64,000 nt of DNA, taken from NCBI RefSeq assembly GCF_007829815.1, contig NZ_VIWT01000004.1, forward strand, positions 372,001-436,000, in the 5' to 3' direction. The notes below the pieces were generated by a model, which ran no database searches, had not been told where the DNA came from, and worked only from the letters and a program-made list of their open reading frames with translations. The stretch is from Kitasatospora viridis. GTDB lineage: Bacteria > Actinomycetota > Actinomycetes > Streptomycetales > Streptomycetaceae. Positions 5,001 through 21,417 of the stretch are shown here, in pieces. Within the stretch, counting starts at the first letter, position 1. Every line of letters begins with the position of its first letter. The position numbers and the translations under genes were made by a program.

Positions 5001-8000
5001 GAGCGAGTCGCCCGCGCGGACGGTGTACGGCACCCGCAGGGCGTCGGGGTCGGCGGGCCAGGCCCAGGTGCCGGGCAGCAGCGGCGGCGTGCCGGCGGCC
5101 GGCCGCACCGTGCCGTTGTGCCGCAGCAGCGTGCCGGGGGTGGTCGCGTGGTCGGCGGCGAAGGCCGCGAGGGTCCGCCCGACCGGCACGGGGGTCAGGG
5201 GGGCGGTGAGGAAGAGCGGGGTGCCCGGGGTGAAGAGGTCCACGGTGGTGGTGTTCGGGCGGGCCAGCTCCTCGGGGGGCAGCCCGGTCCCGTTGTCGAG
5301 CAGGGTGTCGCCGCCGCGCACCAGGTAGCCGGTGACCTGGAGCACCGCGCCGCCGCGGAACAGCCCGGGCAGCTGCGCGTTGAGCGAGACCACCTGCACG
5401 GCCGGGTACGGCACCAGGCGCCGCTGGTACTCGGCCGCCACCTCGGCCAGGCTGGCGTCCGCCGGGACGTCCCGCCCCACCTCGACCTGGACGCCGTTGC
5501 AGGTGAAGACGAACCCGCTCGCCAGCAGCGCCCCGGTCTGCTGATTGCCCGTCACCAGGCTGGTGACGGAGCAGTGCAGCGCGGCCGCCAGCTCCGCGAC
5601 GGGCGGGCAGTCGGCCGGCACCGGAGCCGGGCGCGGCGGGGTGGCCAGCTCGACGGCCGGGTTCAACGGCAGGGCGGCGTTGTCCCGGTGCAGCAGCACC
5701 TCCACCGGGTCGGCGCCGCTGCCCTCGCAGAGCCCGACGACGGTGTCCTGGTTGCGGAAGGCGGCGATCACCGGCACTGCGACCCGGTCGGTGTCGAGGA
5801 TCGCGGTGAGCGGCGCGTCCGCGTTGGCGGCGCCGAGCCCCTGGTAGCCGACGCCGTAGCCGGTGCAGATCTCGTCCAGGCTCGCGGCGCCCTCGGCGGG
5901 GGCGGAGCCGATCGCCGCGAGCGAGCCGAGCAGCGCGTGGGCGCCGAGCAGGTAGCGGCGCAGCTCGCCGACGTCGACGGGCAGCGGGGTGGGCGGCGAG
6001 CCCGGTTGCTGGTGCAGCGAGCTGAGCAGCGCCGCACCCACGTCGGGCCGGTTGACCTGGTAGTACACCGGGGCCAGCCGGGCCCGGTCGCGGGCGGCCG
6101 CGGCGGCGGCCGCCAGGCCGGGGGCGTCGGCGCCGGGCTGGTAGGCGATGGTCTGCAGGTCGACGGCCACCGTCAGGTCGGCCTGGCCGCCGGCCGGTTC
6201 GACGGTGTAGCGCAAGGTGGTGGAGGGCCAGCCGCCGACGCCGATCAGCGGGTCGGTGTAGCGGACCGGCAGCGGGATCCGCGCCGGGCTGCCGGACCGG
6301 TTGCCGAACACGTCCTGGAAGCGGACCGCGACCTGGCTGTGCGCGCCGGCGGCGATGCCCGCGTAGGGGTCGCGGTCGGCGGGCGGGGCGGTGGGCAGGG
6401 CCGGGGGCCGCACCAGGGCGAACCGGCTGATGTCGACGACCCGGGTGAGGTCCCAGACCGCCTCGTCCTGCTGGGCCACCGTCAGCAGCCCGAGCTCGTC
6501 GGTGCCGTCGGCGGGGCGCGGCGAGACCGCCCGGCCCTCCACGCTCCCGCGGAACGCGGTGGTGGGCTCCAGTTGGAAGCCGAGCAGGCCGTAGAGCCGG
6601 CGCAGCACGCCCTGCTTGCTGGCGTCGTCACCGGGGTTGACCAGGCAGCCGGTGAAGCCGAGCTGTCCGGGGTCGACCGAGGCGACCGGGCGCAGTTCGG
6701 GCGGGTCGACGGCGCGGGCGGTGAGCGCGACGGAGGCCGGGTCCACGCCGTCGCCGACCACGGCGAGGTTGGTGAAGGCGTAGAGGTGCCGGTCGGGGTC
6801 GGGGCCGCACTGCGAGGAGAGCTGGATCAGCAGGGAGAACCGGGCGAGCCCGTCCTGGTCGAAGATCGCCTCGGGCACCTCGCCCTGGTAGCGCAGCCAG
6901 TAGCCGCCCCCGCCGACCACGCTGCACTCCCAGAGCAGGGTGAGGAAGCGCTGGGTGTCGGCGAGGGCCGCGAAGTGCCGTCCGACGGTGCTGCTCGCCC
7001 GCGCGCCCGAGGGGCCGCTGCTGGTCTCGGTGGTCAGGTTGGTCTGGACGAGGAACGTCGCCCGGGTGTCCAGCTGAGTGGAGGTCAGGCCCTGGCCGAG
7101 GCCGCCGGGTGCGGGCGGCAGCTGCCAGAGCAGGGTGAGCAGGGCCCGTTCGCCGGGAGGCGGGGTCGGCCAGTCGCCGGTGGCGGCCTTGCCGGGGACG
7201 CTGCGCAGGTAGTCCAGCAGGTCGGCGATCCGCTGCCGGTCGGCGGTGTCGGCGCCGAGCACCTCGACGCTGCCGGCCGGGCCGGGGATCCGCCGGACGG
7301 CGAAGGAGACCAGGGTGGCCCAGGCGTAGCTGCCGAGTTCGGTGTGGCTCGCGCCGGTTCCGGCCTGCGGGGCGGTCTGCTCCAGCCGGAAGCCGCTGGT
7401 GCTGCGGTCGGCGCCGGCCCGGGCGGTCAGTTCGGCGGGCAGCGGCCAGAGCGAGGGCGGGCCGGCGGGGTCGCCGGGCAGGTGGAGGGTGGTGGTGGTC
7501 CGCCACGGGATCACCTGGGTGACGGCGTACCGGGTGCCGACGGGGTGGGCGAGCGGCAGCGGCGCGAGCGGGGTCCGCACGACGGGCAGCAGCACGGTGT
7601 CGGGGTAGTTCCTCCGCAGGTCGTCCCCGGTGATCGTGAGGACGGCGGCGGCGGCCGTCGGCGCCTCGACCCGGATCCGGCCGTCCACCACCGCCGCGTC
7701 GGCGAAGCCCAGCCAGTCGGCGGTGCCGGACTTGACCACGGTGAAGGTCACCAGCGGCTCGGGGTCGGCGGCCGGGGGCGGCGGCGGGCCGACGACCTGT
7801 TGGCCGATCAGCTGGTAGCCGCCGGTCATCGGGCCGCGGGCGCGGTAGACCCTGCCGTCGTGCACGGGTGCGGGCAGCCGCAGCCCGCCGAGCATGAACC
7901 GGGCGACCTGGCCGCTCGCGCTCACCGTCCCCGGGCCGTCGTGCAGCGCGGCGCACAGCGTGTCGAGGTCCGCGGCGGGCACCTCGGGCACGGTGAACGG

Positions 8001-11000
8001 CGGGTCGTCGGGCGCGTCGCGCTCGGCCAGCACGCCGGGGTCGGCGGCGATCCGCCGGGCCAGGTCCGCGAGGCCGAGGCCGTACTGCTGGGCCAGGGTC
8101 AGCAGGGTGAGCCCCGGCCCGGTGGTGGCGCGCGCGCCCGGCACCTCGACGGTGAGCAGCGGCACGAGGGCGTCGGCCGCCGCCGCGTAGCGGTCGAAGG
8201 CGGGCCGGTCGGAGTCCAGCAGCAGCCGGTGCTGGAGGCGGCGCAGCGTGTCGTTGGGCAGCACCACGGCGGCGGCGCCGGCGGGCAGCCGGACCCCCGC
8301 CGGGTCGGGCGGGGTGTTGGCCGCCCGCACGGCGTCGAGCCAACTCGCGTACGGGGTGCCGGGGGTGGGGTTCTGCAGCAGGGCGAGGTAGGCGGCGACG
8401 TCGAGCACGGTGTCGCCGGGCAGCGGGGTCCAGTCGAGGGTCCCGGTGCTCAGGTAGCCGGCGGGCACCCGCAGCGGGTTCGGCAGTTCGGGGCCGGTGC
8501 CGGGGTTGAGGCGGTCGATCGCCGTCTGGTACCAGTCGGCGAGCGGCACCTCGGTCGGCGTGGTGAGACCGAGCCGGACGTAGAGGACGGCGGCGGCGGT
8601 GTCCACCGGGAGTCCGGTGTGGACGAAGCCGGGCAGCGGGACGGCGGCGCCGGTGCGCAGCAGCGGGGTGGTGTCGCGCAGGTGGTCGAGCAGGGCGGCC
8701 GGGGCGGCCTGGTGGAGCCGCGCCAGCGCGTCGAGGCTCTGACCGGCGGTCAGCCGGACGGGCAGCGTGCCGAGGCGGATCGGGACGTCCGCGGCCACCG
8801 GCCAGTCGGGGTTGGCGAGGGCGACCGACTCCGGGGTGACGCCGTGGGCCTGGGCGATCGAGCCGAGCGAGTCGGTCCGGCTCACCCGGTGGGGGTAGGC
8901 GGTGAGCAGGTTCACGGCCTCCTGCGCCATCGCCCGGGCGACCATCCGGAAGTAGTCGCGCAGCACGGAGGTGGCCATGGACGCGCTGGGCTCCTCGGCC
9001 GCCGCCGGGAAGCCCAACGTGGGCCGGTCCTGCGGCGGAGCGGGGTCGAGCTCGGCGAAGTGGGCGGCGGCCTCCCGCTCGTAGGTCGCGTCGATCTGCT
9101 GGTGCTCGGCGAAGTCGCGGGTCCGCTCGGTCGGGTCGGGCAGCCCGGTGGCGGTCCACTTGAGCACCGGGGGCATCGGGAACGGGGTGCCCGGGTGGTC
9201 CGTCGGCTCGGGGCCGGTGGCGGTGCCGCTGACCACCAGGTGCAGGTTGTTGGTCAGGAAGCCCTCGATGTTCGACCAGCTGAAGCCCTGGTCTCCGGCC
9301 TCCGGCATGGCCAGTTGCTCGACCAGGTCCAGGAGTTGACCGAGCGTCACGGTCCTGGAGGTGACGCCGAGCGCGTTCAGTGACCAGCGCAGCAGGCCCT
9401 CGGCGAGCTGGTCGAAGGAGGTGTCGGCGGGGGTGGCGGCACGCGGGTGGCCGGACACCTCGGGGCGCAGGCTCGCGGCGATGTCGGCGGCCTCGAACGG
9501 CACGGCGTTGTCGGTGACCAGCATGACGACCAGCCGGTGCTGCGGCTCCTCCTCGGCAGGCGGCCGCTCGCCGGTCCAGGAGACCGGCACCTCGGCGTTG
9601 GTGTAGCCGGGGACCAGGCTCAGGTAGGCGGTCCTCACCTCCCCGTGGGGGAAGACGTGCGCCTTCGGGTCGAAGTGCAGCCGGTAGCCGGCGAGTTCCG
9701 GCCCGCTGACCGCCGGGACCAGGGCGCCGGGCAGCGCGGTGCCGGGGACGATCCGCCAGGGCGGCGTGCTGGTGGAGCCGATCTCGAAGGAGGTCTGCAG
9801 TGTGAGCGAGAAGTTGAACTTGATCCTGAAGAAGGCGATCTTCACGCTGGCGCTGGCCCGCACCGACAGGTTCAGCGAGATCACGGTGGCCTGGTGGGCG
9901 GCGAGTTCGACGGTCGCCATGGCGGAGATCTGCAGGTTGACGTCGACCCGGACCACCTTGAAGTCGACCGTGCCGTAGAGCCGCCCGACGATGCCGACGG
10001 TGCCCCGGCACCAGTAGTAGAGCGCGGTGCCCCGGCCCTCCTGGTCGGGGTGGAACCAGGCCAGCGCCCCTTCGAAGATCACCTCCAGGTTCAGGTACAC
10101 CCCGGCGCTCAGCGGCCCGCGCTGGAAGGTGCGGCCGACGCCGACGGACAGGCCGACGCCGAGCTCCAGCACCGGGCTGAAGGTGCCGTTGCTGATCCTC
10201 GGGACCCGCTTGGAGGTGGCGCCGTTGAGCACGCCGAAGTAGAGGCCGCCCCGCCCGTTGTAGTAACCGGCTTCGAGGCCGAAGGAGTTGGTGAAGTCGC
10301 CGCCGGCCGGGAAGCCGAGGTCGATCCGGAAGTTGCCGTTGGTGAAGATGTCGACGGTGATCACGCCGAGCGTCACCGAGACCGCGCCGAACTGCAACTT
10401 CCGGTAGGCGTCGGGGATCTGCAGCCGGGCGTGGAACACCCCGATGTCGTCGGTGACCTTCTTGTAGAGCAGCTCGACGTTCAGACCGGCCAGCGATCCC
10501 GCCTGCGGCCCGTTCAGCGCCAGCAGGATGCCGTAGAGGTCGGGGTCGTGCATGACCAGCTTGACCGCGACGGTGTCCATGACGGTGGCGTCGATGCCGA
10601 ACAGCCACTGGCTGGCGGGGTCGAAGACCATGGTGGCCGGGTTGATCGGCGCCTTGCCGGTGGCGGGGTCGGCCGGGCGCATCGCGGCGACCATCGCGTC
10701 CACCACCTCGGCGATGCCGGGGTGTGCGGTGAGGCCCACCGGCGAGACGTGCTGACCCAGGCCCAGGTAGCGCAGCGCGAACAACTTCCGCCCCAGGCCC
10801 GGCGGCTGCGGCGGCGCCTGGGTGACCGGGTCCCAGCTCAGCGGCTTGGGCGCGTCGTCGCCGAGCAGTTGGGCGTCCAGCACGATCTCCACCACCGGCG
10901 TCCCGGTGGAGCGGGTGTAGCGCAGGCCGACCTTGGTGATCTTGACGAAGCCGAGGTCGAGGGTCAGGCCGTACTCGACGGCGACGGACTGTTCGGTCGG

Positions 11001-13178
11001 GTCGATGGTGAGCGACAGCCCGCTCAGGTCGATGCCGCCGAGGAAGTTCCACGGCGGGTCGAGCCGGAAGGTGGCGTTCGGGTTGGCCAGCGCCACCAGC
11101 GTGCTGAGCAGTTCGCCGAGCGTGCCGGTCAGCCGGACGGTGAGGATCTGGTGGCGCTGCTCCCCCTCGCCGGTCCAGCCGGTGGCCGCGCGCAACGAGA
11201 GTGCGCCGTAGGCGACTTCGAAGGTGTAGTCCTTGCCCTGGTCGGCCACCGAGACCGAGGCTGCGACCTTGAGCCGGTTGACCGCGAAGCTGCCGGCCAG
11301 GCTGCCGGTCAGCGCGCCCTGCGCGCTGCGCTCGATCCGCGCGGTCAGCATCAGCTCCAGGGCGATGCCGATCAGGGTCTCCGCCACCGCCGCGCGCAGC
11401 GCCCCGGAGGCCGCGTACGGCCTGCCCTCGGCGGTGCTGAACCGCAGTTGCAGGTCGGTGAGGTCGATCTCCAGCTCGTTCAGCCACTGCGGCAGCTGAC
11501 GTGCCATCAGGGCCTGGGCCAGGCGCGGCAGTTTCACGGTGCCGACCATGGCGGCGGTGAACTCCCAGGCGTCCTCGCCCGGGTAGCGCGCCTGGGCGCT
11601 CAGCTCGATCGGCGGGTACGCCACTTCGGTGGGGTCGGCCGACCGGATCTCGCCCTTGCCGGCGATCAGCCCGGAGACCGCGTTCGGCGCGGCCTTGACC
11701 TGGAGTTGCAACCCTGTCAGGGCGAACTCGACCTTGCCGGCCGTGACCGCCCAGTCGCCGCTCAACGTCAGCTCGGCGGCGAAGGTCTGCTGGGTCGGCG
11801 AGGCCTGCATGCTCAGCGTCTCGCAGCGCAGCCGGGCGTCGATCGGGGCGTCGCCGCCGAAGAACACCCGGAACGCCTGCTCGATCGGCAGGTCGAAGGG
11901 CCGCTCGGTGAAGGCCCTGAACTCCAGCTCCGGCAGCGACACCTGGACCGTCACCAGGATGTCGGTGCGGGCGTCGAGAGGCGCCCGGCCCCCGGTGGGG
12001 GCGGCGGCCTTCGCGCCGAACCGCATGGTGCCGAAGACCGTGCCGAAGTAGTCCGTCGGCTTGCCCGCCTCGAAGGCGAACTGCCACCGGGTGCCGACCT
12101 GATCGATCATCAGGAAGGGCACCGGCGGGTCCCAGGGCTGGTCCGAGAGGATCGAGACGGCGGAGTAGGACAGCCCGGGCCCGCCGAGGGCGAGCGGCAC
12201 GACGCCGAAGCCGAGGTCCTGGAGCCGGAACCGGTCGAGCGGCGCGATGCCCGGGGGCAGCGCGAAGTCCCCGGCCGGGGCGCCGGTCATCTGGATCAGC
12301 GCCTGGACCGCCCCGCGCAGCCCGAGCGGGGGGTCGAGCGCGACCAGCAGTGGCCAGACGTAGTCGCCGCAGAGCAGGGCGCAGCCGACGGTGGCCGTCC
12401 GCACCGGCTCGGTGGGCAGCGTCACCTCGGCGAACAGCAGCACCGCCGAGCGGTGCGCGCCCAGTTGGGGGATCGGGTACGGGTCGGGGTACTCGGTGGT
12501 GAGCAGCACGCCGACCGCCGAGACGACCAGGTCGCCCAGCCGCAGCGGCAGGCGCGAGGTGGCGGCCCGCAGCTCGATCACCGGCAGCTTGCCGGTCGGG
12601 AAGGCCAACGGGCCCTCCACCGGCAGGCGTTCACCGAGGAAGTCGGCGTAGCGGGCCAGCAGGTCGCTGCCGGGCTTGACCGGGTCGCCGAGCACCAGCA
12701 GCGTGCCGGAGAGCCTGGGCCCGGCCTCGGGCGGGGTGTTGCCGGCGGTGAGGACGGGCCGCTCCAGGATCAGCGGGCCGAGCACGCTCGGCCCGAGGAG
12801 CAGCCCGCCGAGCCCGCCCTCGGGCGGGCGCCGGCTCTGCGGCAGCTCGCCGAAGGCGCCCGCGAAGGTCCACGGTTCGGACGCAGCGACCCGGGTCAGC
12901 TCCAGCAGCAGCACGGCCCGCTCGCCGTCGGCCTGCGGGGTGCCGGTGAGCCGCATGGTCCAGTCGGTGTCGAGGTAGCGGGTGCGGCCGGTGAGCCGCG
13001 CGCTGCGCGGCGGTTCCTCGGTGGCGGCGCCCTCGGTGACCGGCAGGCCGGTCACCGCGAGCGGGGTCAGCAGCTCGGCGAGCCCGGGCAGCGACAGGTC
13101 GGCGGAGAGCTCGCCGCTCGCCACGGCCGCCTGGAACGCGCGGAGGATCTCTCCGACTGTCACGGGTTCGACTGTCAC
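2058..13178 (-). CDS. Giant 3706-aa beta-rich protein with LysM-like modules (DUF6603-like region)
   Basis: A continuous 11.1-kb reading frame with strong actinobacterial codon bias. No signal peptide or membrane segment is visible. Residues about 1-790 are alternating hydrophobic beta-type sequence. About 790-1150 is Gly/aromatic-rich (NGRGGLYFGVLNG, then RGTVGIVGRLYG) and resembles what I recall of DUF6603. LysM-like segments appear near 1425-1505 (TDSLGSIAQAHGVTPESV), near 1690, and as a degenerate array about 2570-2910 (YTVRAGDSLDAVTAHF). The C-terminal third is mixed alpha/beta, with an Asp/Glu/Pro/Asn-rich linker made by a 9-bp repeat. The GTG start lies 9 nt after the stop of the preceding gene; the first ten bases of the gene recur 15 nt further on. 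It looks like a large surface, scaffold or cargo protein. I do not know its function; the DUF6603 match is from memory. Confidence 0.6.
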   Translation of the reverse strand: MTVEPVTVGEILRAFQAAVASGELSADLSLPGLAELLTPLAVTGLPVTEGAATEEPPRSARLTGRTRYLDTDWTMRLTGTPQADGERAVLLLELTRVAASEPWTFAGAFGELPQSRRPPEGGLGGLLLGPSVLGPLILERPVLTAGNTPPEAGPRLSGTLLVLGDPVKPGSDLLARYADFLGERLPVEGPLAFPTGKLPVIELRAATSRLPLRLGDLVVSAVGVLLTTEYPDPYPIPQLGAHRSAVLLFAEVTLPTEPVRTATVGCALLCGDYVWPLLVALDPPLGLRGAVQALIQMTGAPAGDFALPPGIAPLDRFRLQDLGFGVVPLALGGPGLSYSAVSILSDQPWDPPVPFLMIDQVGTRWQFAFEAGKPTDYFGTVFGTMRFGAKAAAPTGGRAPLDARTDILVTVQVSLPELEFRAFTERPFDLPIEQAFRVFFGGDAPIDARLRCETLSMQASPTQQTFAAELTLSGDWAVTAGKVEFALTGLQLQVKAAPNAVSGLIAGKGEIRSADPTEVAYPPIELSAQARYPGEDAWEFTAAMVGTVKLPRLAQALMARQLPQWLNELEIDLTDLQLRFSTAEGRPYAASGALRAAVAETLIGIALELMLTARIERSAQGALTGSLAGSFAVNRLKVAASVSVADQGKDYTFEVAYGALSLRAATGWTGEGEQRHQILTVRLTGTLGELLSTLVALANPNATFRLDPPWNFLGGIDLSGLSLTIDPTEQSVAVEYGLTLDLGFVKITKVGLRYTRSTGTPVVEIVLDAQLLGDDAPKPLSWDPVTQAPPQPPGLGRKLFALRYLGLGQHVSPVGLTAHPGIAEVVDAMVAAMRPADPATGKAPINPATMVFDPASQWLFGIDATVMDTVAVKLVMHDPDLYGILLALNGPQAGSLAGLNVELLYKKVTDDIGVFHARLQIPDAYRKLQFGAVSVTLGVITVDIFTNGNFRIDLGFPAGGDFTNSFGLEAGYYNGRGGLYFGVLNGATSKRVPRISNGTFSPVLELGVGLSVGVGRTFQRGPLSAGVYLNLEVIFEGALAWFHPDQEGRGTALYYWCRGTVGIVGRLYGTVDFKVVRVDVNLQISAMATVELAAHQATVISLNLSVRASASVKIAFFRIKFNFSLTLQTSFEIGSTSTPPWRIVPGTALPGALVPAVSGPELAGYRLHFDPKAHVFPHGEVRTAYLSLVPGYTNAEVPVSWTGERPPAEEEPQHRLVVMLVTDNAVPFEAADIAASLRPEVSGHPRAATPADTSFDQLAEGLLRWSLNALGVTSRTVTLGQLLDLVEQLAMPEAGDQGFSWSNIEGFLTNNLHLVVSGTATGPEPTDHPGTPFPMPPVLKWTATGLPDPTERTRDFAEHQQIDATYEREAAAHFAELDPAPPQDRPTLGFPAAAEEPSASMATSVLRDYFRMVARAMAQEAVNLLTAYPHRVSRTDSLGSIAQAHGVTPESVALANPDWPVAADVPIRLGTLPVRLTAGQSLDALARLHQAAPAALLDHLRDTTPLLRTGAAVPLPGFVHTGLPVDTAAAVLYVRLGLTTPTEVPLADWYQTAIDRLNPGTGPELPNPLRVPAGYLSTGTLDWTPLPGDTVLDVAAYLALLQNPTPGTPYASWLDAVRAANTPPDPAGVRLPAGAAAVVLPNDTLRRLQHRLLLDSDRPAFDRYAAAADALVPLLTVEVPGARATTGPGLTLLTLAQQYGLGLADLARRIAADPGVLAERDAPDDPPFTVPEVPAADLDTLCAALHDGPGTVSASGQVARFMLGGLRLPAPVHDGRVYRARGPMTGGYQLIGQQVVGPPPPPAADPEPLVTFTVVKSGTADWLGFADAAVVDGRIRVEAPTAAAAVLTITGDDLRRNYPDTVLLPVVRTPLAPLPLAHPVGTRYAVTQVIPWRTTTTLHLPGDPAGPPSLWPLPAELTARAGADRSTSGFRLEQTAPQAGTGASHTELGSYAWATLVSFAVRRIPGPAGSVEVLGADTADRQRIADLLDYLRSVPGKAATGDWPTPPPGERALLTLLWQLPPAPGGLGQGLTSTQLDTRATFLVQTNLTTETSSGPSGARASSTVGRHFAALADTQRFLTLLWECSVVGGGGYWLRYQGEVPEAIFDQDGLARFSLLIQLSSQCGPDPDRHLYAFTNLAVVGDGVDPASVALTARAVDPPELRPVASVDPGQLGFTGCLVNPGDDASKQGVLRRLYGLLGFQLEPTTAFRGSVEGRAVSPRPADGTDELGLLTVAQQDEAVWDLTRVVDISRFALVRPPALPTAPPADRDPYAGIAAGAHSQVAVRFQDVFGNRSGSPARIPLPVRYTDPLIGVGGWPSTTLRYTVEPAGGQADLTVAVDLQTIAYQPGADAPGLAAAAAAARDRARLAPVYYQVNRPDVGAALLSSLHQQPGSPPTPLPVDVGELRRYLLGAHALLGSLAAIGSAPAEGAASLDEICTGYGVGYQGLGAANADAPLTAILDTDRVAVPVIAAFRNQDTVVGLCEGSGADPVEVLLHRDNAALPLNPAVELATPPRPAPVPADCPPVAELAAALHCSVTSLVTGNQQTGALLASGFVFTCNGVQVEVGRDVPADASLAEVAAEYQRRLVPYPAVQVVSLNAQLPGLFRGGAVLQVTGYLVRGGDTLLDNGTGLPPEELARPNTTTVDLFTPGTPLFLTAPLTPVPVGRTLAAFAADHATTPGTLLRHNGTVRPAAGTPPLLPGTWAWPADPDALRVPYTVRAGDSLDAVTAHFPGADLAEVNAEMPATIAAGVRITVGDREVTTTEPVSFDQACALFDPAVPLSALAAALGPRTDVLAPGALLLCPPGVLPGRPGEGVTPDQAAAAFGVGAAALLAANAGTPGLLMPGQVLKAGPAGRGGTVATETTAPRDTLTALVERLRLRGAATGVTAVVEANAGTAFLRAGARVLVPPAGARLTARLGPPEPDGDWTFPDWVFPLTVALELSRAPELVDPALAGTATRAATAVPADRGSDPQQDGALTLTAFAERVQEAVPALRLATAPGRGGDTDLWAVVFDAAGIAEVTVEPPLEIAGTDQPRTFAIRPLSTTLTARQNVTTHGFNQETGLLEGEQIRDYQGIDLEVWAQGFLADLELLLTAGYVQGAYALAPQVLDAVIDVKKTLAGAVAEGLDHVLADPDDPENPENPDDPNGLGRAAAVERLRQELLVSLTRGYATSAVIQYDTSATVPPGRRARLSGNPVADYAGAPVDRRTATLSNGKIALTDDPSHLTFLLTVPDVAAHASHDLGLAYRGVELEFDIVREIEGYERSDWLTFVTQLASGSPEELDFDLGAPRIPIPLRAYPPMPILLDQQALVDSTATELDRALRWRYRCAVQHQSAEQDTIELRVSFNEPAAQPTAAALDDLFAAMAQYTAVATPLLGLLAALPDWERADQRRREALANALTTYQQLAAEVAEAWRRHWTGPVPAPAVAAERTAGAPEIEAYRYQLRLTVERDRYRTLTLTRAVERGPDRVGWPESVFCITASGERRRLTAEGAEPGADSRSYRFPTDPDVEAFSLLTFELTFPPVHIATHQNASAATRVTRNARLLGEGWPRTAEAFVYRTPEAAAAQPVVPFIDVTHTLPIGPWAPPPAENPLEPLFRAVFDGDESGRTIAIGARYAYTLVAADPPVTALLPVVQSTVGAYTPATTVPALTRTLNDWTELERPQTAGGAWAFRLSLYSSVDPSLQRPVLQLRHLSAALGEA
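3732..3776. repeat. 9-bp tandem repeat inside the giant gene
   Basis: Five consecutive 9-bp units of the form GGGGTCGTC or GGGGTTCTC on the plus strand. In the giant protein they encode an acidic, Pro/Asn-rich linker (DDP/ENP triplets) following a helical segment. The unit is a multiple of three, so copy-number change would alter linker length without shifting frame. Confidence 0.8.
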
Positions 13179-13187
13179 GTGGTCCGC

Positions 13188-14249
13188 CTACGGTTCGGTG
13201 TCGATCGGCAGGGGGCGCAGGGTGCAGCTCAGCTCGATGTCGCCGTACGTGGTCGAGTCGTGCGCCCCGTAGGTCTTGACGGTGGTTCGGATCCGCTTGG
13301 TGGTGTTGACGGTCCGCCAGCTCCCGAAGATGTCGCCGCTGCGCCACAGGTCGAAGCAGACGAAGTCGTGTGCGGCGTCCGCCGTCAGGGTGGGCCGGAA
13401 CAGGTCGATCACCCCGGCGGCCGGAATGCCTGCGACGTTGTCCACCCCGGCGCTCACGCAGATCTCCTGCGGGCGGACGGTCGCCGCGAAGTCCTCGATG
13501 ACCGCCCACTCGTCCGCGTCCCAGTCGTCCGGGTTCGCCCGGCGCGCGCTGACCGCCGTCTCCAGCACGCTGCGGTTCGGCAGCACCAGGGCCCGGTCCG
13601 CCGGGATCCGGGTGGCCAGGTTGGGGATCCGGTTGATCGTCCGCATCAGCGGGAGGGTCAACTGGCCGGGCAGCACGACGGCGAGCCGCCCGTTCTCGAT
13701 GACCAGCGCGGTGGCCCGCACCGAGGCGCGGTTGTCGGTGGCCAGGATCCGGACGTAGGTGCCGTTGTGCTCGGCGATCCAGGTCGGCTCGCCCGTCAGG
13801 TAGTCGCTCTGGTTGGGGCCGGCGAACTCGACGTCGCCCAGCGGGAATCCGAGGAGTTCCAGCAGGTCCTGGACGGCCTCGGGCCCGCTGCCCGTCCACC
13901 TGCTGCCCGGCACCAGGACCGACAGCACGGTGGCGCCGACGGCCTTCAGCCGTGACCCGAGCGCGCCGAGCAGGTTGGTGCTCTGCTCGTCCAGGCTGGT
14001 GAAGGCGATCAGGTTGAGCAGTTTGCGGTGCCGGTGGCCGACCTTGGCCTGGACGTAGTCCAGCGCCGCCTGGGCGTACCGCTTCTCGCCGCCGCAGTTG
14101 ATCAGCGCCAGGAAGTCGGCCTCGTCCCGGCGCGTGCCGTCGTTGTAGATCTCCACCAGGACCAGCTGGCCCTGGCCGCACCACAGCACCTTGACCACCG
14201 TGAGCGGGTTCTGCTTCCCGTCGTCCCCTGTCGTTCCCGGCTCCGTCAT
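13188..14249 (-). CDS. 353-aa protein resembling a degenerate ComEC-type metallo-beta-lactamase fold
   Basis: The ATG at 14249 overlaps the TGA of the upstream gene (ATGA), so translation is coupled; the stop lies 9 nt before the GTG of the giant gene. No signal peptide. The layout recalls ComEC/Rec2-like MBL proteins. ALINCGG (48-54) sits where MBL proteins have the LIDCG strand. FTSLDEQSTNL (83-93) sits where the zinc motif THxHxDH is expected, but all His ligands are missing. DNRASVRATALVIENG (172-187) followed by VVLPGQLT resembles the second-half NxxSLVLxLxxGxxxxLLTGD block. If so, the fold is kept and metal catalysis lost, suggesting a binding or scaffold role. Expression of the gene is well supported; the fold is inference. 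Confidence 0.55.
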   Translation of the reverse strand: MTEPGTTGDDGKQNPLTVVKVLWCGQGQLVLVEIYNDGTRRDEADFLALINCGGEKRYAQAALDYVQAKVGHRHRKLLNLIAFTSLDEQSTNLLGALGSRLKAVGATVLSVLVPGSRWTGSGPEAVQDLLELLGFPLGDVEFAGPNQSDYLTGEPTWIAEHNGTYVRILATDNRASVRATALVIENGRLAVVLPGQLTLPLMRTINRIPNLATRIPADRALVLPNRSVLETAVSARRANPDDWDADEWAVIEDFAATVRPQEICVSAGVDNVAGIPAAGVIDLFRPTLTADAAHDFVCFDLWRSGDIFGSWRTVNTTKRIRTTVKTYGAHDSTTYGDIELSCTLRPLPIDTEP

Positions 14250-17200
14250 TCCCGGCTCCCGTCGCCCGGCGCCGCCGGCAGGGGCTGCGGGGTCTTGCGG
14301 TCGGCCGCCGCGAGGTAGGCGAGGTACCAGCCGACCTTGGAGGCACTGCCCTGGTCGGGGTTGCCGAACAACACCACGTCGTTGTTGCCCGGTGGGAAGG
14401 CCAGGCCGAGCATCCGCAGCGCGAAGTCCCGCAGCCGCAGCGTGTAGCTGCGCGGCTGCCCGTCCGGCCGCGCGGTCAGGAACTCCACCGACCGGAAACC
14501 CATGGTCACCACCCCTTGCAGCGGCAGGTTGACGCCCAACACCCCGTTGGCGCCCGGGAGTCTGACGCCCAGGTAGACCACCGGGTCGCCGCCGGCCGCG
14601 CCCGGGCTCCAGGCCACCAGGACTTGGAGGGCCAGCGCCTTGCTGCCGGCCAGCGCGCCCAGCGAACCGAGGTCCACGGTGTAGTCCAGCCCGTACCAGG
14701 GCTGGGCGAGCACCGACTGCTGGAGCGGCGAGGTGACCGTCACGTAGCCGAGGTCGGCGGGCGTCTGCGGCAGCGGCGCCGGGCCCGCCGCCAGGGCCGG
14801 GTCCGGCATCGCCAGCAGCCCGTTCAGCCGGATCGGGAACCGCTCGACCAGCGAGTTCTCCCGCGCCTTGCTGTTGGCCGCGTCGAAGGAGAGGTTGCCG
14901 TCCTTCAGGGCGAACCGGGTGGTCCCGGCGGGGTCGCCGAGTTCGAAGCCCATCGCGACGGCGAGGCCGCCGAAGCGCAGGTGGCCGTCCGCCCCGGCGG
15001 CGTCGGCGCCCCAGCAGAACGGGTCGAAGCCGTCCGGCTCGTAGAACCGCAGGTTGCCCGCGAGTTGGAAGAGCGCGTCGACGCTCGCGCGGCCGGCGGC
15101 CGGGTCGGCGGCCCTGGCGGTGACCAGTTGGGTGGAGAGCAGTTCGACGCCGAGCAGGACGGATCCGCCGAGCTCGAAGGTGTTCTGCCCGGCCATCGAG
15201 AACACGTAGGTGTCGTGCCGGGCGGGGTCGCCGGGCACCTGCTGGCGCTGCAGGGCACCGTCCAGGACGATGTTGTTCCCGTGCTCGGTCGGCTGCAGCC
15301 GGGTCGGCGCGCCGAACAGCCGGTTCACCAGCAGCTCGGCCCGGCTGGTGAAGGTGGTGACCACCGAGTTGCGCAGGCCGACGGTGAGTTGCAGCACCCG
15401 GAAGGCGAAGGCGGTGTCCTCGCTGAAGTACTGGTCCTCGGGGTTCTGGTAGTCGATCAGCCCGAACAGCGCCGAGCGGTCGAAGACCAGGTGACCACCC
15501 GTCAGGCGGTACGGCGTGAGCGAGAGTCCGACGTGGTGCGCGACGAACCGGGCCGGGTCGATGCCGGCCGCCAGCACCTGGAGCTCGGCCGGGAGCTGGT
15601 CCAGCGGGACGTCCGCCGACAGCGCGAGCACGCCGGTCCAGTCCGGGTCGTCCACCACCGCGAGGAACGGCGCGTAGGGCCCGCCGCGCTGCGGGTGCTC
15701 CGCCACCGCCTTGCGGGCGGCGGCGATCACGGCCCCGATGGCCCGCTGGGCGTCGGCCGGGTCCCCGCTGCGGGCGGCCGCGCGCGGCCAGGCCCAGGTG
15801 GAGACGTCGCCGACCAGCTCCGAGATGCTGCGGCCGAGCACGAACTTGACGATCAGGTGGGTGTCGGCCCGCCAGTTGTCCGGGGAGAGGCGGAACGGCC
15901 AGCCGCCGGCCACCGGCGTGAGCAGGCCGGCGTAGCGCAGGAAGACCCGCTGCTGGTCCTCGGTGATCCCGCGCGAGGCGGCCCGCAGCGCGGCGACGAA
16001 CGCGTCCCGGGTGTCGTACCCGATCCCCCGCATGTGCTGCTCGACGGCCGCCAGCACGGCGGCCGGCACGCCGCCGCGGTCCTCGGGGATGCTCGCGATG
16101 ATGCCCAGGGCCGCCGCGGTCAGCCGGTAGCCGACGGAGCCGTGGCGGTTGAACTCCACCGGGTCGCCCAGCACCAGGAACAGGTTGTTGGTCTGCATCG
16201 CCTGCCGGAACGGCCCGTCGACGGTGGTGAACCGCAGGTCGGGCACGGCCGCCGGGGCGCCGTTGTGGCCGATGCCGAGCCAGTTCCAGTCGGCGTCCGG
16301 GGAGAGCCCGACCGCCAGGCCCTGCGGGGTCACGGCCACCGTCTCCGGGGCGTCGGCGCGCTGCCCGCCGCCCGCGGCGGGCAGCAGCACGGCCCGCCGG
16401 GTGGGCGCGATCGCCAGCTGCTCGATCGCCACCGCGTCCGCCACCGCCTGCCCGGCGAGGCCGTGGAACGGGGCCATCGGGAAGGGGGTGCGGCTCGCGG
16501 CGGCGGCCGGCACCTCGCGGTAGCCGAGCAGGTCGACGCCGGCGACGGCGCTCGCGGCTCCGACTGCGGCTGCGGCTGCTGCGGCTCCGGCTGCGGCTGC
16601 GGCTCCGGCGGCGTAGAGCGGCGCGTCCTCGGGCTGGCTGTAGTAGGTGACCGTGCTGGCCGGCTCGGCCGGTTCGATCCGCACCCAGGCGGTGGTCCCG
16701 TGGTCGGTGAGCGAGTCGCCGCCGGTGCGGTCCGGGCCGAGCGGGGCGAAGGCGGGCTGGCCGGCCAGGAAGGAGATGGTGCCGCCGGCCGCCGGCAGTC
16801 CGAGGTACTCCAGGCCGGAGGTGCCGCAGATCACCCGCGAGCCCGCGACCGCCGTCTCGACGGCGAACGGCCCGTCCGGGACCAGGTAGTAGACGGCGCT
16901 GCCGGTCTCCTGGCTGAGGTAGGGCGCGAGGCCGAAGACCAGGCGGGCCGGGTGCGCGGTGCCCGGCAGCGCGGCCAGCGGGCGCAGCGCCACCCCGTGG
17001 CCGAGCACGGTGGCGTAGCCGGACGGCAGCGCCGGCGCCTCCCCCGCCGGCGTCTGCCCCTCGGCGGCGGGTGGGAAGAAGCCGAGCGCGGTGCGCTCGC
17101 CGTCGAGCGGGCGCAGCGGGTCGATCCGGGCGTGGAACTCCAGTGCAGCGTCGGCGGGTTGGCGCAGCACGGCGAACCGCAGCGGGTTGACCGAGCCGTC

Positions 17201-17821
17201 CGGCCCGGGGGTGAAGAAGCGCAGGTCGGCGCCGAGCCCCGCGAAGGCGTCGCGCCCGGCCGGCACGTCGATGACGAACTGCCAGGCGCCGGTGTGCCCG
17301 GGGTCGAGGCTGAGCAGCGTGCTGCCGGGGCGGGCGGGGTAGCGGCTCGCCGGGGTGTAGAGCGTGGCGCCGGGCCGGTCGGCCGGGTCGGCGAGGGCGA
17401 AGCCCCAGCCGGTCGCCGACTGCGCCGGGGCGATCAACGTCCCGTCGTTCAGCTGGAGCTGGTAGACCGTCAGTTCGAAGCCGGTCGTGTTCACCGCCCA
17501 CCCGCCGGGGGCCGCCCGCACGGTCAGCTCCTCGGTGAGCCAGCGGGCCGGTTCCAGGGCCGGGTCGGCCACCCAGAGGAAGCGCGGCGGGCCCTTCGCC
17601 CCGCGTGCGGCCACCCAGGAAGCCAGCGCCGCCGGGAAGTCCGGTGGCTCGGCGGTCCCGAGGAAGACGTAGGCGCCGCCGTCGTCCCGCCAGGTCTCGT
17701 CGAGGGTGGGCCGGTCGCCGAGCGCCGCGCCGGCGGAGGCGTAGAACGCGGCCTCCTCCGGCGCCTGGTCCGCCCGGTAGAGCCGGGTCCCGGGGACCCG
17801 GGTGAAGGTGGGCCCGGTCAT
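14246..17821 (-). CDS. 1191-aa beta-rich protein of unknown function
   Basis: The ATG at 17821 overlaps the TGA of the 60-aa repeat ORF upstream (ATGA), and the gene ends in an ATGA overlap with the MBL-like gene. The frame stays open upstream, but that extension is out-of-frame repeat sequence. No signal peptide or membrane span is clear. Residues about 405-430 are an Ala/Gly-rich low-complexity linker from a short tandem repeat (16,555-16,615). The C-terminal half has alternating hydrophobic strands with Gly-rich turns (FELGGSVLLGVELL; LRFGGLAVAMGFELGD), similar in texture to the giant protein. The N-terminal half has mixed strands and loops. I recognise no catalytic motif. Position inside a coupled operon suggests it acts with the giant and FN3 proteins. 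Confidence 0.6.
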   Translation of the reverse strand: MTGPTFTRVPGTRLYRADQAPEEAAFYASAGAALGDRPTLDETWRDDGGAYVFLGTAEPPDFPAALASWVAARGAKGPPRFLWVADPALEPARWLTEELTVRAAPGGWAVNTTGFELTVYQLQLNDGTLIAPAQSATGWGFALADPADRPGATLYTPASRYPARPGSTLLSLDPGHTGAWQFVIDVPAGRDAFAGLGADLRFFTPGPDGSVNPLRFAVLRQPADAALEFHARIDPLRPLDGERTALGFFPPAAEGQTPAGEAPALPSGYATVLGHGVALRPLAALPGTAHPARLVFGLAPYLSQETGSAVYYLVPDGPFAVETAVAGSRVICGTSGLEYLGLPAAGGTISFLAGQPAFAPLGPDRTGGDSLTDHGTTAWVRIEPAEPASTVTYYSQPEDAPLYAAGAAAAAGAAAAAAAVGAASAVAGVDLLGYREVPAAAASRTPFPMAPFHGLAGQAVADAVAIEQLAIAPTRRAVLLPAAGGGQRADAPETVAVTPQGLAVGLSPDADWNWLGIGHNGAPAAVPDLRFTTVDGPFRQAMQTNNLFLVLGDPVEFNRHGSVGYRLTAAALGIIASIPEDRGGVPAAVLAAVEQHMRGIGYDTRDAFVAALRAASRGITEDQQRVFLRYAGLLTPVAGGWPFRLSPDNWRADTHLIVKFVLGRSISELVGDVSTWAWPRAAARSGDPADAQRAIGAVIAAARKAVAEHPQRGGPYAPFLAVVDDPDWTGVLALSADVPLDQLPAELQVLAAGIDPARFVAHHVGLSLTPYRLTGGHLVFDRSALFGLIDYQNPEDQYFSEDTAFAFRVLQLTVGLRNSVVTTFTSRAELLVNRLFGAPTRLQPTEHGNNIVLDGALQRQQVPGDPARHDTYVFSMAGQNTFELGGSVLLGVELLSTQLVTARAADPAAGRASVDALFQLAGNLRFYEPDGFDPFCWGADAAGADGHLRFGGLAVAMGFELGDPAGTTRFALKDGNLSFDAANSKARENSLVERFPIRLNGLLAMPDPALAAGPAPLPQTPADLGYVTVTSPLQQSVLAQPWYGLDYTVDLGSLGALAGSKALALQVLVAWSPGAAGGDPVVYLGVRLPGANGVLGVNLPLQGVVTMGFRSVEFLTARPDGQPRSYTLRLRDFALRMLGLAFPPGNNDVVLFGNPDQGSASKVGWYLAYLAAADRKTPQPLPAAPGDGSRE

Positions 17822-18000
17822 CGCCCGGCCCCGGGCGTCGGTCGGGGGCCGGCCACCGGTCGGGGTCCGGTCATCGGTCGCGGTCCGGTCATCGCTCGCG
17901 CTTCGGTGATCGCCCGGGGTCCGGTCATCGGTCGGGGTTCGGTCATCGCTCGGGCTTCGGTGATCGGTCGCGTTGCGGGCATCGGTCGCGTCCCCGTCAT
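17818..18000 (-). CDS. 60-aa ORF of ten hexapeptide repeats, coupled by ATGA at both ends
   Basis: The ATG at 18000-17998 overlaps the TGA of the FN3-repeat gene, and its own TGA at 17820-17818 overlaps the ATG of the 1191-aa gene. The ORF thus exactly bridges two coupled genes. The peptide is ten hexamers with consensus MTGPRP; variants include MPATRP, ITEARA and VAGPRP, and the last is TPGAGR. It is strongly basic and Pro/Arg-rich, with Met opening six of ten units. Each unit contains a start-like context (GATGACCGGA), resembling the start region of the next gene. It may be a short peptide in its own right or a ribosome relay that carries coupling between its neighbours. No homologue is known to me. 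Confidence 0.6.
   Translation of the reverse strand: MTGTRPMPATRPITEARAMTEPRPMTGPRAITEARAMTGPRPMTGPRPVAGPRPTPGAGR
17822..18000. repeat. 18-bp tandem repeat array between two operon genes
   Basis: About ten 18-bp units; on the minus strand the consensus is GATGACCGGACCCCGACC. Substitutions are scattered over the units and the tenth is one base short. The start of the 1191-aa gene (GATGACCGGGCCC) matches the unit, so the array looks like serial duplication of a start-codon region. The other two minus-strand frames are low-complexity Arg/Pro/Asp sequence. Confidence 0.85.
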
Positions 18001-21000
18001 CGCTCGGCGTCCGTCGCGAGGTCGAGGCGGTCGCCGTGCAGCAGCGGCAGGTCGAGCGCCGCCGGGTCGCGCGGGCGCCAGCCCGGCAGCACCGGCCAGT
18101 CGCCGTCCGGGCCGTCGGCGAGCGCCGCCGCCGCACGCGCCCGGTGCAGGGTCACGCCGTCCAGCGGCAGCGGCACGGCGGCCGGGCGCCGGCCCGCGCC
18201 GGCCAGCAGGTTGCCGAGCGTGGTGCCGAGCGGCACCAGCCGGGGCGCGCCGTTGACGCTGACCCGCACCATCGCCCGCAGCACCGCCCGCCCGCGCGGG
18301 TAGGCCGCGGCGGCGTCGCCGAACGCGGTCGCCCTCCCCCGCAGGTGGTCGGTGGCCTGCGCCAGCCCCGCGAGCCCGGCGGCGGCCACCAGCACGGCGT
18401 TGTCCTTCGGCCAGGGCGAGCCCTTGGAGGAGGAGAGCGCCGAGGGCTGGTTGACCGGCAGGACCAGGCGCGCGAAGGGCCGCTCGCGCAGCGGCGCCGC
18501 GAACAGGTCGAGCGCGCCGCCGGCGCCGGAGAGCTGTCCCTCCCGGGTCCACACCGGGGCAGGCACCGCGGTGCCGCCCCACAGCGTCAGTTGGGCGAGG
18601 AAGGCGTCCAGGCCGGTGGTCCAGGTGCCGCCGTTGTCGTAGGAGGCCACCTCGTAGTCGGCGACCCCGCCGGTGACGAAGCCGGACACGGCGGTGTCGG
18701 CCTGGATGGTCTGGTAGCTCTCGTACTCGACCCGCAGCACCAGCCCCGGGCGCAGGTCGAAGTGGCCCTGGTCGAAGCGCAGCCCGTAGGCGAAGTAGAG
18801 GGTCTCGGCGAAGGTCTGCGGCACCGCCCGGGAGAGTGCCTCGCCCAGCGCCGCGTACCCGTACGGGGTGAGGCCGAGCGCGCCGAGCCCGGGGAACGCC
18901 GCCGCCCACGCGGCGATCACGTCCGGCCGCTCGGTGAAGTCCCACATCCGGCTGTCCGCCGGTACGTGCAGCAGGTACGGGTAGGGCCCGTCGGCGGCCG
19001 GGGTCAGCCGGCAGCCGAACGGCAGCGGGACGGGTTCGCGGCGCGGGGGCGCGAAGAGTTCCGGCAGACCGAGCGTCAGCTGATGTGGCGTCAGTTCCGG
19101 TCCCCACTGCGGGGCGAGGTGGCCGCCGCCGACCACCAGCGTCCCGGTGTAGACGGGGACGGGCGGCGTGGCCGCGCCGAGGGCCGGGCCGGCGGTCCCC
19201 CGGACGGTGACGGTGGCGGCGGGGTCCGCGATCTCCACCGGCCAACTGCCCTCGGGGGCGTGGGTGTCGCCGAGCACGGTCTCGGTGCCGTCGGCGGTCA
19301 GGCTGACCCGGTAGCCGTCGACCAGCGGCGAGGCGAGCGCCGTCCAGCGCACCCGCAGCGTGCTGCCGTCGTAGGCCACCCGCAGGCCGCCCGGGGCGGC
19401 GGTGAGCAGCACGGCGGCCGGCCCGGGCGGGCCGGCGGCGGCGCCCGCGACACCGCGCAGCGCGAGCGTGGCGGTGTTCGGGACGCCGTCGGGCAGGGTC
19501 AGGGTGAGTTCCCCCGGGCCGGCCGGCTGGTCGGCCGCCTCGAACTCGGTGCCGTCCCAGCGCAGCACCGGCCGCACCGCGGTGAGCGGCGGCGCCGGGG
19601 GCGGGGCGTACCGCACGGTCACGGCCCGGTCGCCGCCGATCGCGACCTCGGTGAGCCGCGGGCCGCTGGTGACCAGGTCGAGGGCGGTCACCGGGCCCCG
19701 GGCCGGGCCGGCCACCTGGGCGACCGTCATCCGGTCAGCGGTGAGCGGCAGTCGGGCGCTCTGACCCTGGATCAGCCGCGCGGTGTCGCCGACGGCGACC
19801 CGGTAGCCGCCGTCCGCCGGCCCGCTCCAGGCCAGCGCGACCTGCCCGCCGTCGGCCCGCGCGAGGGTCACCGCGACCGGCGCGGACGGTGCCGGGACGG
19901 GCGCGGACCACGGCCCGGTCGCCACGCCGTCCACCCCGCGCACCGCGACGGCGAGCCGGCCCGGCCGCACGGTGAAGACGGCGGTGCCGTCCGGGCCGAC
20001 CCGCTCGGGGGTTCCCGGCACGCCGTCGGCGAGCAGCACCGCCTCGATCGGCACGCCGGCGGCCAGGTGGCCGGCGCCCGCCGTCACCACCAGGTCGGTG
20101 TCGCAGACGACCGCGCCGACGGCGGCCGTGGCCGGCACGGCGGGCGCGCTGGCCGCCGGACCGACGGCGCGCCCGAGCTGCGCCCGGACCGCCACCGTGT
20201 ACGCCGCGCCGCGCGGGCGCGGTTCGGGCACGGCGAGCGAGAGCGTGCCGGCCGGGCCGAGGCTCTCCCGGACCACCGGCACGCCGTCGCGCAGCAGCAC
20301 GGCGGCGTAGCCGGTGGGGGCGGTGGGGGCGGTGGGGGCGGCGTAGCCGGTGGGGGCGGTGGGGGCGGAGTCCGGTGGCCGCAGGTCGATCGACACGGTC
20401 GACCCGTTGGAGGTGACGCCGGTGATCGTCGGCGCCGTGAGCGGGATGCCGAGCGGCGCCGAGGTCGGGCCGGTGCCGGCCTCGCCGACGGCCTGGACGA
20501 CCACCAGGTAGCGGCCGGGGTCGGTGATCGCGGGCTCCAGCTCCGCCGTGGTGGCGGGCGCGGCCACCTCCACCGGGGTACCGAGGACGCCGCGCTCGGT
20601 CAGCACGCTGACCCGGTAGCCGTCAGCGCCGGGCACCGCGTGCCAGGCCACCGAGAGCCGCCCGGCCTCGTACCCGACGGCGAGCAGTTCGGGCTCGGCG
20701 GTCGGCACCGCGAACGCGGGGCCGTACGGGCCGATGACCACCAGGCCCGGGGACTCGCGGACCCGGGCGAGGGCCGCCGCGACGGTCGAACCGGCGGGCG
20801 GCGGCTGGTCGATGCGCAGCGACCCGCCGGCGACCGGCGGGCTCTCCGGGTCCGGTGCGCCGCCGTTGACCACCAGCCGGACCATGCACCGGTCGGGGCC
20901 CGCCGCCGGCCAGGAGAGCGTCAGGGCGCCGGTGGCGGCGGCCGTTTCGGCCAGCTCGATCGCGGCGGTGGCGGTGAGGATCGCCACCTTGGCGGAGGCC

Positions 21001-21245
21001 CTGCCCGACGCGCCGACCTGGACCTCGTAGGTCTCGCCGGGCGGCACCTCCACCAGCAGCCGGGCGCTGTTCGCCGTCCCCACGGACGCGTCGACGACCT
21101 TGGTCGACCCGTTCCAGACCATCACCAGGAACCCGATGCCCAGCCCGGTGCTGCCGGTCCAGGAGACGGTCAGGACACCGTCCTGGTACCGGACCCGTGT
21201 GATGACCGGCTCGGCCTTCTCCGGCTCGGCGACCTCTGCGGCCAC
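17997..21245 (-). CDS. 1082-aa protein with multiple fibronectin type III-like repeats
   Basis: The GTG at 21245 is chosen because GGAGAC lies 5 nt upstream; an ATG at 21320 has no ribosome site. The first 700 or so residues are a chain of roughly 90-aa FN3-like modules with strands such as LTVSWTGS, LSVAWHAV with GADGYRVSV, and VDGYRVSLTADG. A 9-bp repeat makes an APT-rich linker. The C-terminal 350 residues differ: they include PFGCRLTP, an aromatic stretch (TLYFAYGLRF), and an end segment RVSVNGAPRLVPLGTTLGNL that could be a small beta-grasp-like domain. No signal peptide is seen, which is odd for FN3 arrays. It is the first gene of the putative operon and couples to the repeat ORF. An adhesion or scaffold role is inference. 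Confidence 0.65.
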   Translation of the reverse strand: MAAEVAEPEKAEPVITRVRYQDGVLTVSWTGSTGLGIGFLVMVWNGSTKVVDASVGTANSARLLVEVPPGETYEVQVGASGRASAKVAILTATAAIELAETAAATGALTLSWPAAGPDRCMVRLVVNGGAPDPESPPVAGGSLRIDQPPPAGSTVAAALARVRESPGLVVIGPYGPAFAVPTAEPELLAVGYEAGRLSVAWHAVPGADGYRVSVLTERGVLGTPVEVAAPATTAELEPAITDPGRYLVVVQAVGEAGTGPTSAPLGIPLTAPTITGVTSNGSTVSIDLRPPDSAPTAPTGYAAPTAPTAPTGYAAVLLRDGVPVVRESLGPAGTLSLAVPEPRPRGAAYTVAVRAQLGRAVGPAASAPAVPATAAVGAVVCDTDLVVTAGAGHLAAGVPIEAVLLADGVPGTPERVGPDGTAVFTVRPGRLAVAVRGVDGVATGPWSAPVPAPSAPVAVTLARADGGQVALAWSGPADGGYRVAVGDTARLIQGQSARLPLTADRMTVAQVAGPARGPVTALDLVTSGPRLTEVAIGGDRAVTVRYAPPPAPPLTAVRPVLRWDGTEFEAADQPAGPGELTLTLPDGVPNTATLALRGVAGAAAGPPGPAAVLLTAAPGGLRVAYDGSTLRVRWTALASPLVDGYRVSLTADGTETVLGDTHAPEGSWPVEIADPAATVTVRGTAGPALGAATPPVPVYTGTLVVGGGHLAPQWGPELTPHQLTLGLPELFAPPRREPVPLPFGCRLTPAADGPYPYLLHVPADSRMWDFTERPDVIAAWAAAFPGLGALGLTPYGYAALGEALSRAVPQTFAETLYFAYGLRFDQGHFDLRPGLVLRVEYESYQTIQADTAVSGFVTGGVADYEVASYDNGGTWTTGLDAFLAQLTLWGGTAVPAPVWTREGQLSGAGGALDLFAAPLRERPFARLVLPVNQPSALSSSKGSPWPKDNAVLVAAAGLAGLAQATDHLRGRATAFGDAAAAYPRGRAVLRAMVRVSVNGAPRLVPLGTTLGNLLAGAGRRPAAVPLPLDGVTLHRARAAAALADGPDGDWPVLPGWRPRDPAALDLPLLHGDRLDLATDAER
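20306..20366. repeat. 9-bp tandem repeats inside the FN3-repeat gene
   Basis: Five perfect GGTGGGGGC units, three then two, separated by a copy of GCGTAGCC. They encode a Thr/Ala/Pro-rich inter-domain linker (APT triplets with TGYAA). Copy number can change without breaking the frame. Confidence 0.8.
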
Positions 21246-21417
21246 GTCCCGTCTCCGTCCGCTCGCGGCAAGCCCCTCGGACCAGTCAGACGTAGTCGAA
21301 CCATCGTGGCGCCGCGCCACGCCACACGGCCCGCACCGGCCTCACCCGGTCGGAGCACTCGGATTTCCGTGCGGAACCATGGAAAATCCTGAATCGAAAG
21401 TGACATGATCCGATGCT
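21246..21417. promoter_or_regulatory. Divergent intergenic region upstream of the large minus-strand operon
   Basis: The 172-bp gap separates the FN3-repeat gene (minus) from the M48-like gene (plus) and is less GC-rich near 21,360-21,417. It holds a short palindrome, TTCCG-N2-CGGAA, at 21,365-21,376, inside a looser inverted pair GGATTTCC (21,361-21,368) and GGAAAATCC (21,381-21,389). These could be an operator for the 20-kb operon. No clear -35/-10 pair can be assigned. Confidence 0.35.

Follow-up and report, generated by a model that had tools for sequence, protein, structure and literature searches.

The window analysed here, a stretch of 64,000 nucleotides, carries an operon (2058-21320) encoding an FN3 protein, a 1191-aa protein, a protein of about 350 aa and a 3706-aa LysM protein. 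The order of these genes is kept in Tistrella pTM1, and that of at least the first genes in the Embleya and Nostoc plasmid records; for most of the operon a family or known function is lacking, and profile searches with the 1191-aa protein returned no Pfam or NCBIfam family. Between the first two genes lies a small repetitive ORF, which we call the relay ORF and which shares an ATGA with each of its neighbours. The features of this junction, and of the next one in the operon, are the following:

17997..21320, minus strand: upstream gene, 1107 aa, with an fn3 domain (PF00041), from the ORF list and Pfam; third-position G+C (GC3) 0.96
17997..18000, minus strand: first ATGA overlap, read in the sequence, joining the stop TGA of the FN3 gene (17999-17997) and the ATG of the relay ORF (18000-17998)
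17818..18000, minus strand: relay ORF, read in the sequence, 60 codons plus stop, hexapeptide repeats with the consensus MTGPRP
17822..18000, minus strand: extra DNA relative to array-free relatives, 179 nt, nine units of 18 nt and one of 17 nt, defined by its removal, which gives a gapless alignment to the two Streptomyces contigs (L003 and L004)
17822..17838, minus strand: last unit, 17 nt, one base short, which brings the TGA within the second ATGA into frame so that the ORF ends there
17818..17821, minus strand: second ATGA overlap, read in the sequence, joining the stop TGA of the relay ORF (17820-17818) and the ATG of the downstream gene (17821-17819)
14246..17821, minus strand: downstream gene, 1191 aa, conserved partner of the FN3 gene, from the ORF list; GC3 0.97
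14230..14259, minus strand: next operon junction, a 15-bp tandem duplication spanning its ATGA (stop 14248-14246, ATG 14249), in frame (MTEPGTTGDDG...)

The coordinates of the relay ORF (18000..17818) and both ATGA overlaps had been given exactly in the initial annotation, as had the six of the ten units that open with ATG; two others open with ATC, one with GTG and one with ACG. The same annotation described ten perfect-length hexamers, which holds for the reading frame but not for the DNA register, in which nine units have 18 nt and the last has 17. This short last unit, through which the ORF is closed, had been overlooked; with 18 nt it would make the array run in frame into the downstream protein. 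By the repeat structure, the six internal ATGs are duplicates of a single start codon, and the other sense frames are as regular as the 18-bp period predicts, the FN3 frame meeting a TGA in five units and the third frame in none. A 54-bp period was also detected beside the 18-bp one by TRF, from which we conclude that part of the growth of the array was in steps of three units. Neither the relay start nor the downstream start is preceded by a Shine-Dalgarno-like motif. Predicted RNA folding of 17790-18030 was no better on either strand than that of dinucleotide shuffles (z 0.82 and 0.35), and an Rfam scan of 17000-19000 gave no family at its gathering score. A second 18-bp tandem array of about 8 copies, also with a 54-bp period, is present at 58118-58265, just ahead of a gene (58398-60623, plus strand) that is kinase-like and has PQQ-like repeats, its family being assigned by eye.

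The repetition exceeds chance (TRF scores 163 and 218), and the array is single-copy in its genome: a two-unit pattern allowing up to 3 mismatches has 4 matches in 10.09 Mb, all within the array itself, and the array DNA has no match in the plasmid collection. The open frame alone is unremarkable. In the non-coding frames of the neighbouring gene, 9397 of 18235 sixty-codon windows are open, and random sequences of the array's composition stay open over the length of the ORF in 58% of cases, 95% of random 18-mers of this composition having no stop in a given frame. Exact bridges from [AG]TGA to ATGA are also fairly common, with 10 found in 456 kb of chromosome, spanning 13 to 139 codons and including the relay ORF.

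Relatives of the downstream protein that are 68-69% identical were found in genome contigs of S. katrae and Streptomyces sp. NBC_00572, together with eight in plasmid records, three of which (Tistrella, Embleya, Nostoc) cover most of the query. Phage records and viral contigs gave no match, nor did the other genomes of the genus, where the protein occurs in its own genome only (1/70). A sample of the family gave 4 of 150, own genome included, and the three other matches, partial, with E-values of about 1e-4 and 26-39% identity, were treated as chance. The junction with the FN3 gene was read in the five relatives S. katrae, NBC_00572, Tistrella, Embleya and Nostoc, and the array is absent from all of them. 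The initial annotation had proposed comparing the array among related strains, and what this comparison yields is its absence in every case together with a direct overlap of the two genes in the four high-GC relatives, of -4 in NBC_00572, Tistrella and Embleya and of -1 in S. katrae; by annotation, the Nostoc junction has a 17-nt gap.

When the 179 nt at 17822-18000 are removed, the window aligns without gaps to both Streptomyces junctions, with 48/60 and 45/60 matches on the two sides relative to NBC_00572 and 44/60 and 45/60 relative to S. katrae, versus at most 20/60 when the same alignment is shifted by 1 or 2 nt. The 18-mer spanning the emptied junction, formed by CGAGCG before the joint and ATGACCGGGCCC after it, matches the rotated repeat consensus ATGACCGGACCCCGACCG at 16 of 18 positions, a value to be read with the caveat that array edges resemble units by construction; over roughly 6,900 sites in the two genes, the background does not exceed 13/18 in the same register or 14/18 in any rotation. 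Stronger evidence than this comes from the array-free gene starts, of which that of NBC_00572 matches the consensus at 10 of 12 bases and that of S. katrae at 9. Because the starts of the array-free relatives already match the consensus, the gene start appears to be the source of the unit. It is thus well supported by these comparisons that the array represents the ATGA stop/start junction duplicated in tandem to about ten copies.

According to this derivation, an 18-bp segment with the last bases of the FN3 gene and the first of its neighbour would have been repeatedly duplicated, partly three units at once, and one unit would later have lost a base. Every unit brings its own ATGA, so that the FN3 gene still finds its stop in the first copy, and the next gene its start in the last. 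The loss of one base leaves an insert of 179 nt (2 modulo 3), and the frame opened at the first ATG thus closes exactly on the last ATGA. The initial annotation had overlooked that the repeat unit corresponds to the gene junction, both ATGA ends being a by-product of the origin of the array; if the array is a duplicated junction, these ends need no further explanation.

As to function, we consider it probable that this junction-derived array acts as a ribosome relay in which a chain of -4 overlaps has been retained. On finishing the FN3 gene, a ribosome would reinitiate immediately, translate the 60 codons, terminate at the second ATGA and there begin the downstream gene; the feature kept would be the chain of overlaps and not the peptide. 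In E. coli reporter work, 38 nt placed between genes cut reinitiation by 80-100% in three pairs (PMC10666635), and because of this an unbridged insert of 179 nt should uncouple the two genes, whereas the relay ORF would restore a -4 overlap at each end of the insert. That ribosomes follow this route here, and that expression of the downstream gene depends on it, we infer. The downstream N-terminus is kept, with MTGPTFTR in the window versus MTEPTFTR and MAEPTFTR in the Streptomyces relatives, which fits a relay rather than an extension.

The organism's own chromosome lends weak support to a relay. Among non-direct gene pairs in 456 kb, counted as pairs with an ATGA- or GTGA-started gene within 450 nt, 9 of 16 are bridged if the upstream stop carries a start, versus 10 of 41 if it does not (one-sided Fisher 0.025, or 0.044 without the window array). 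An unfiltered control in the same genome did not favour the bridging frame (10 versus 22 and 3), a count that is confounded by internal Met codons.

A pattern of three ATGA spaced 18 nt apart matched 116 times in the 70 genomes of the genus, versus 60 times for the reversed pattern, by our own summation. From these, 65 rows were chosen, recurrent non-tandem matches and overlapping registers being dropped by eye; 40 of them have units at least 9/14 alike, and the 34 loci with at least 10/14 that were examined are therefore a selected set. Ten of these 34 tandem arrays lie at stop/start junctions between two GC3-coded genes, versus 6.8% expected from single ATGA sites (P 6e-5), two of the ten having related downstream proteins. 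The notion of start codons as general hot spots was rejected, with 16 of the 34 arrays at gene starts versus 42% expected (P 0.33). Another case, L071, presents the same architecture as the window and can be considered a second relay: its upstream gene ends on the first ATGA, from which a 38-codon ORF starting MSGSDGMSGSDGM leads to a stop on the ATGA of the next gene.

The L071 junction, which is unrelated to that of the window, was followed through the genus, its downstream gene being found in 69 of the 70 genomes and all 69 junctions being retrieved. This orthologue test weighs more than the set of tandem arrays, as it was unselected on outcome, though the junction itself was found via one bridged case. 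Of the 69, 56 overlap directly, 11 are gapped and one, which lies at a contig edge (L098), could not be read. Each of the 11 gaps is closed exactly by micro-ORFs of 11-45 codons overlapped through ATGA, GTGA or TTGA, a single one in nine genomes and a chain of two in L092 (23 and 26 codons) and L096 (26 and 26). The one exception, L240, counts against a relay, since its upstream frame passes through the followed joint with no stop there, which may reflect either a real lesion or a sequencing error. With a random phase, and a closure chance of at most 1/3 per gap, the probability would be 6e-6 for 11 events, but the bridges are partly non-independent (three carry one element and two share a similar peptide), and for the approximately 8 distinct ones it becomes (1/3)^8 = 1.5e-4. 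None of the 69 junctions presents an in-frame extension, and the downstream protein has a conserved MSLL start.

A contrasting outcome was found at a junction between an acyl-CoA dehydrogenase and an amidohydrolase (Pfam), where 28 of 30 loci (1 other, 1 unread) have an in-frame run of 14-83 codons that begins with an ATGA or GTGA on the upstream stop and reaches a conserved motif; tandem duplications make up several of these runs. The start of the amidohydrolase varies in length among the loci. At L126, L132 and L119, GTGA-bearing units of about 21-24 bp are repeated in frame at this junction, and the N-terminus of the second protein is longer. Two outcomes are thus observed at these junctions, an extension with a free N-terminus and a relay with a fixed one.

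At the L071 junction, three of the bridges consist of a 77-bp interspersed element (for example L096:1424-1504), which encodes a 26-codon ORF (MSERSERII...WANAPAERSE.GA) with ATGA at both ends and occurs in rows of up to four. It matches in at least 47 of the 70 genomes of the genus, with none in the window's genome among the matches listed, and once in the plasmid collection, in Streptomyces sp. BHT-5-2. We examined 70 loci, 30 that were each the best of their genome and 40 further ones that deliberately included odd partial matches. In 58 of them a succession of one to four ATGA overlaps ends precisely where a GC3-coded gene begins, and 40 also have a GC3-coded gene that stops on the first overlap. 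As for the remaining 12, the element start was misplaced by the script in nine, the downstream ORF failed the composition test in two, and one runs straight into the gene. Copies bearing small indels still close on the next ATGA, after 35 codons in L202, 27 in L214 and 51 in L215. The 26-codon ORF shows an excess of synonymous changes (196 of 557, versus 134, range 108-160, in 300 random placements), so that a peptide role is possible for this element, unlike for the window array.

The main alternative to a relay is that the array is a neutral minisatellite, grown by slippage at the junction, with an accidentally open frame and a downstream gene started independently or otherwise. This would account for the lack of codon bias and of a synonymous excess, for a frame that chance alone would leave open about half of the time, for the ATGA at both ends, which follows from junction duplication, and for the frequency of exact bridges on the chromosome. 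However, neutral growth predicts gaps in all phases, whereas at the followed junction all the gaps are bridged by ATGA-type overlaps, and it would not lead one to expect that 77-bp copies altered by small indels are nevertheless closed by the following ATGA, nor that the downstream start has no preceding Shine-Dalgarno-like motif. We therefore regard this explanation as unlikely.

It may also be argued that the last unit truly has 18 nt, the missing base being an assembly error, and that the array is a 60-residue in-frame N-terminal extension of the downstream protein from the first ATGA. The length of the nine other units and the position of the short one within a G+C-rich stretch would agree with this, as would the in-frame runs from an upstream stop, frequent in the genus (seen in 28 of 30 loci for the acyl-CoA dehydrogenase/amidohydrolase junction), the tandem ATGA arrays at stop/start junctions and the in-frame duplication at the next junction of the operon. 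Nevertheless, the assembly itself gives 17 nt, the downstream protein shares a conserved N-terminus, counted from its own ATG, with the relatives that lack the array (M-x-E/G-P-T-F-T-R), and at the junction with the conserved MSLL start only bridges were found, which makes an extension distinctly improbable.

The third alternative, that the ORF encodes a selected basic Pro/Arg-rich peptide, has in its favour the intact reading frame and the regular hexapeptide, but is scarcely credible given a GC3 of 0.73 in the array versus 0.96-0.97 in the neighbouring genes, the rare CGA codons (9 of 10 arginine codons, versus 2/74 and 0/75 in the two flanking genes), a synonymous share at the null (when the nine full units are compared, 8 of 24 differences, with 7.4 as the null mean and P 0.48), the lack of any Pfam or NCBIfam match and its absence from all five operon relatives examined. 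Thus, a function of the peptide is unlikely, it lacks the orthologues and the coding signature of a conserved small protein, and it is probably filler. The initial annotation had left the choice between a translational relay, a functional basic peptide, or both; the relay is supported by the comparison, in which relatives overlap directly and other gaps in the genus are bridged, while the peptide is not, and a relay function of the window ORF is likely on these grounds.

For the genus as a whole, we tentatively propose, with somewhat less assurance than an even chance would give, that stop/start junctions are recurrent growth points of DNA, either by junction duplication or by the 77-bp element, and that selection keeps mainly the insertions that pass ribosomes on. 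These would be in-frame insertions (0 modulo 3) where the N-terminus tolerates them and ATGA-closed micro-ORFs (2 modulo 3) where it does not, relays being stackable up to four, and the window array would be a relay that formed in situ and resembles the mycobacterial interspersed repetitive units (MIRUs), perhaps a step on the way to such elements or to new small genes. If this is true, ribosome hand-over is worth preserving, and what is inserted at coupled junctions persists mostly where the chain of overlaps is left intact; the in vivo need for reinitiation at ATGA overlaps becomes testable with many natural replicates; a simple route for new small ORFs between genes is provided; and annotators are warned that such small ORFs may be spacers, not proteins.

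In the open-licence PMC literature we found neither a tandem duplication of an ATGA junction nor the 77-bp element reported for Streptomycetaceae. Several known systems offer a comparison. The coupling by termination-reinitiation at ATGA/TGATG overlaps (PMC6728339, PMC10666635) is alike in that both relay ends are standard -4 overlaps, but the window has two successive overlaps and a repeat-made ORF between genes that overlap directly in relatives. In short upstream ORFs that deliver ribosomes to a coupled gene (PMC12548453), the ORF also matters by its translation and not its product, whereas the window ORF is itself fed by the upstream gene. Bacterial minisatellites or VNTRs share the head-to-tail array of short period with higher-order steps (PMC6749651), but the window array sits exactly on a stop/start junction that is kept at both ends.

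The closest comparison in design is with the MIRUs, for which the original paper (Supply 1997) reportedly names DTGA insertion sites. According to a 2025 review (PMC12548453), these are repeats that insert at start codons and whose internal ORF is coupled through a -4 spacing, so that expression changes little. The window array resembles them in its anatomy, with a small ORF joined to the adjacent gene by a -4 nt overlap, but differs in having an 18-bp unit and no sign of mobility: MIRUs are interspersed, whereas all 4 pattern matches of the array lie within itself, and they are mobile insertions at start codons, whereas its unit would derive from the local junction (16/18). The 77-bp element comes much closer to the MIRUs in its design, and it is likely a MIRU-like family in Streptomycetaceae. 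The window array, in turn, may be seen as a home-made counterpart of a MIRU, apparently born in place, without interspersed copies or insertion from outside.
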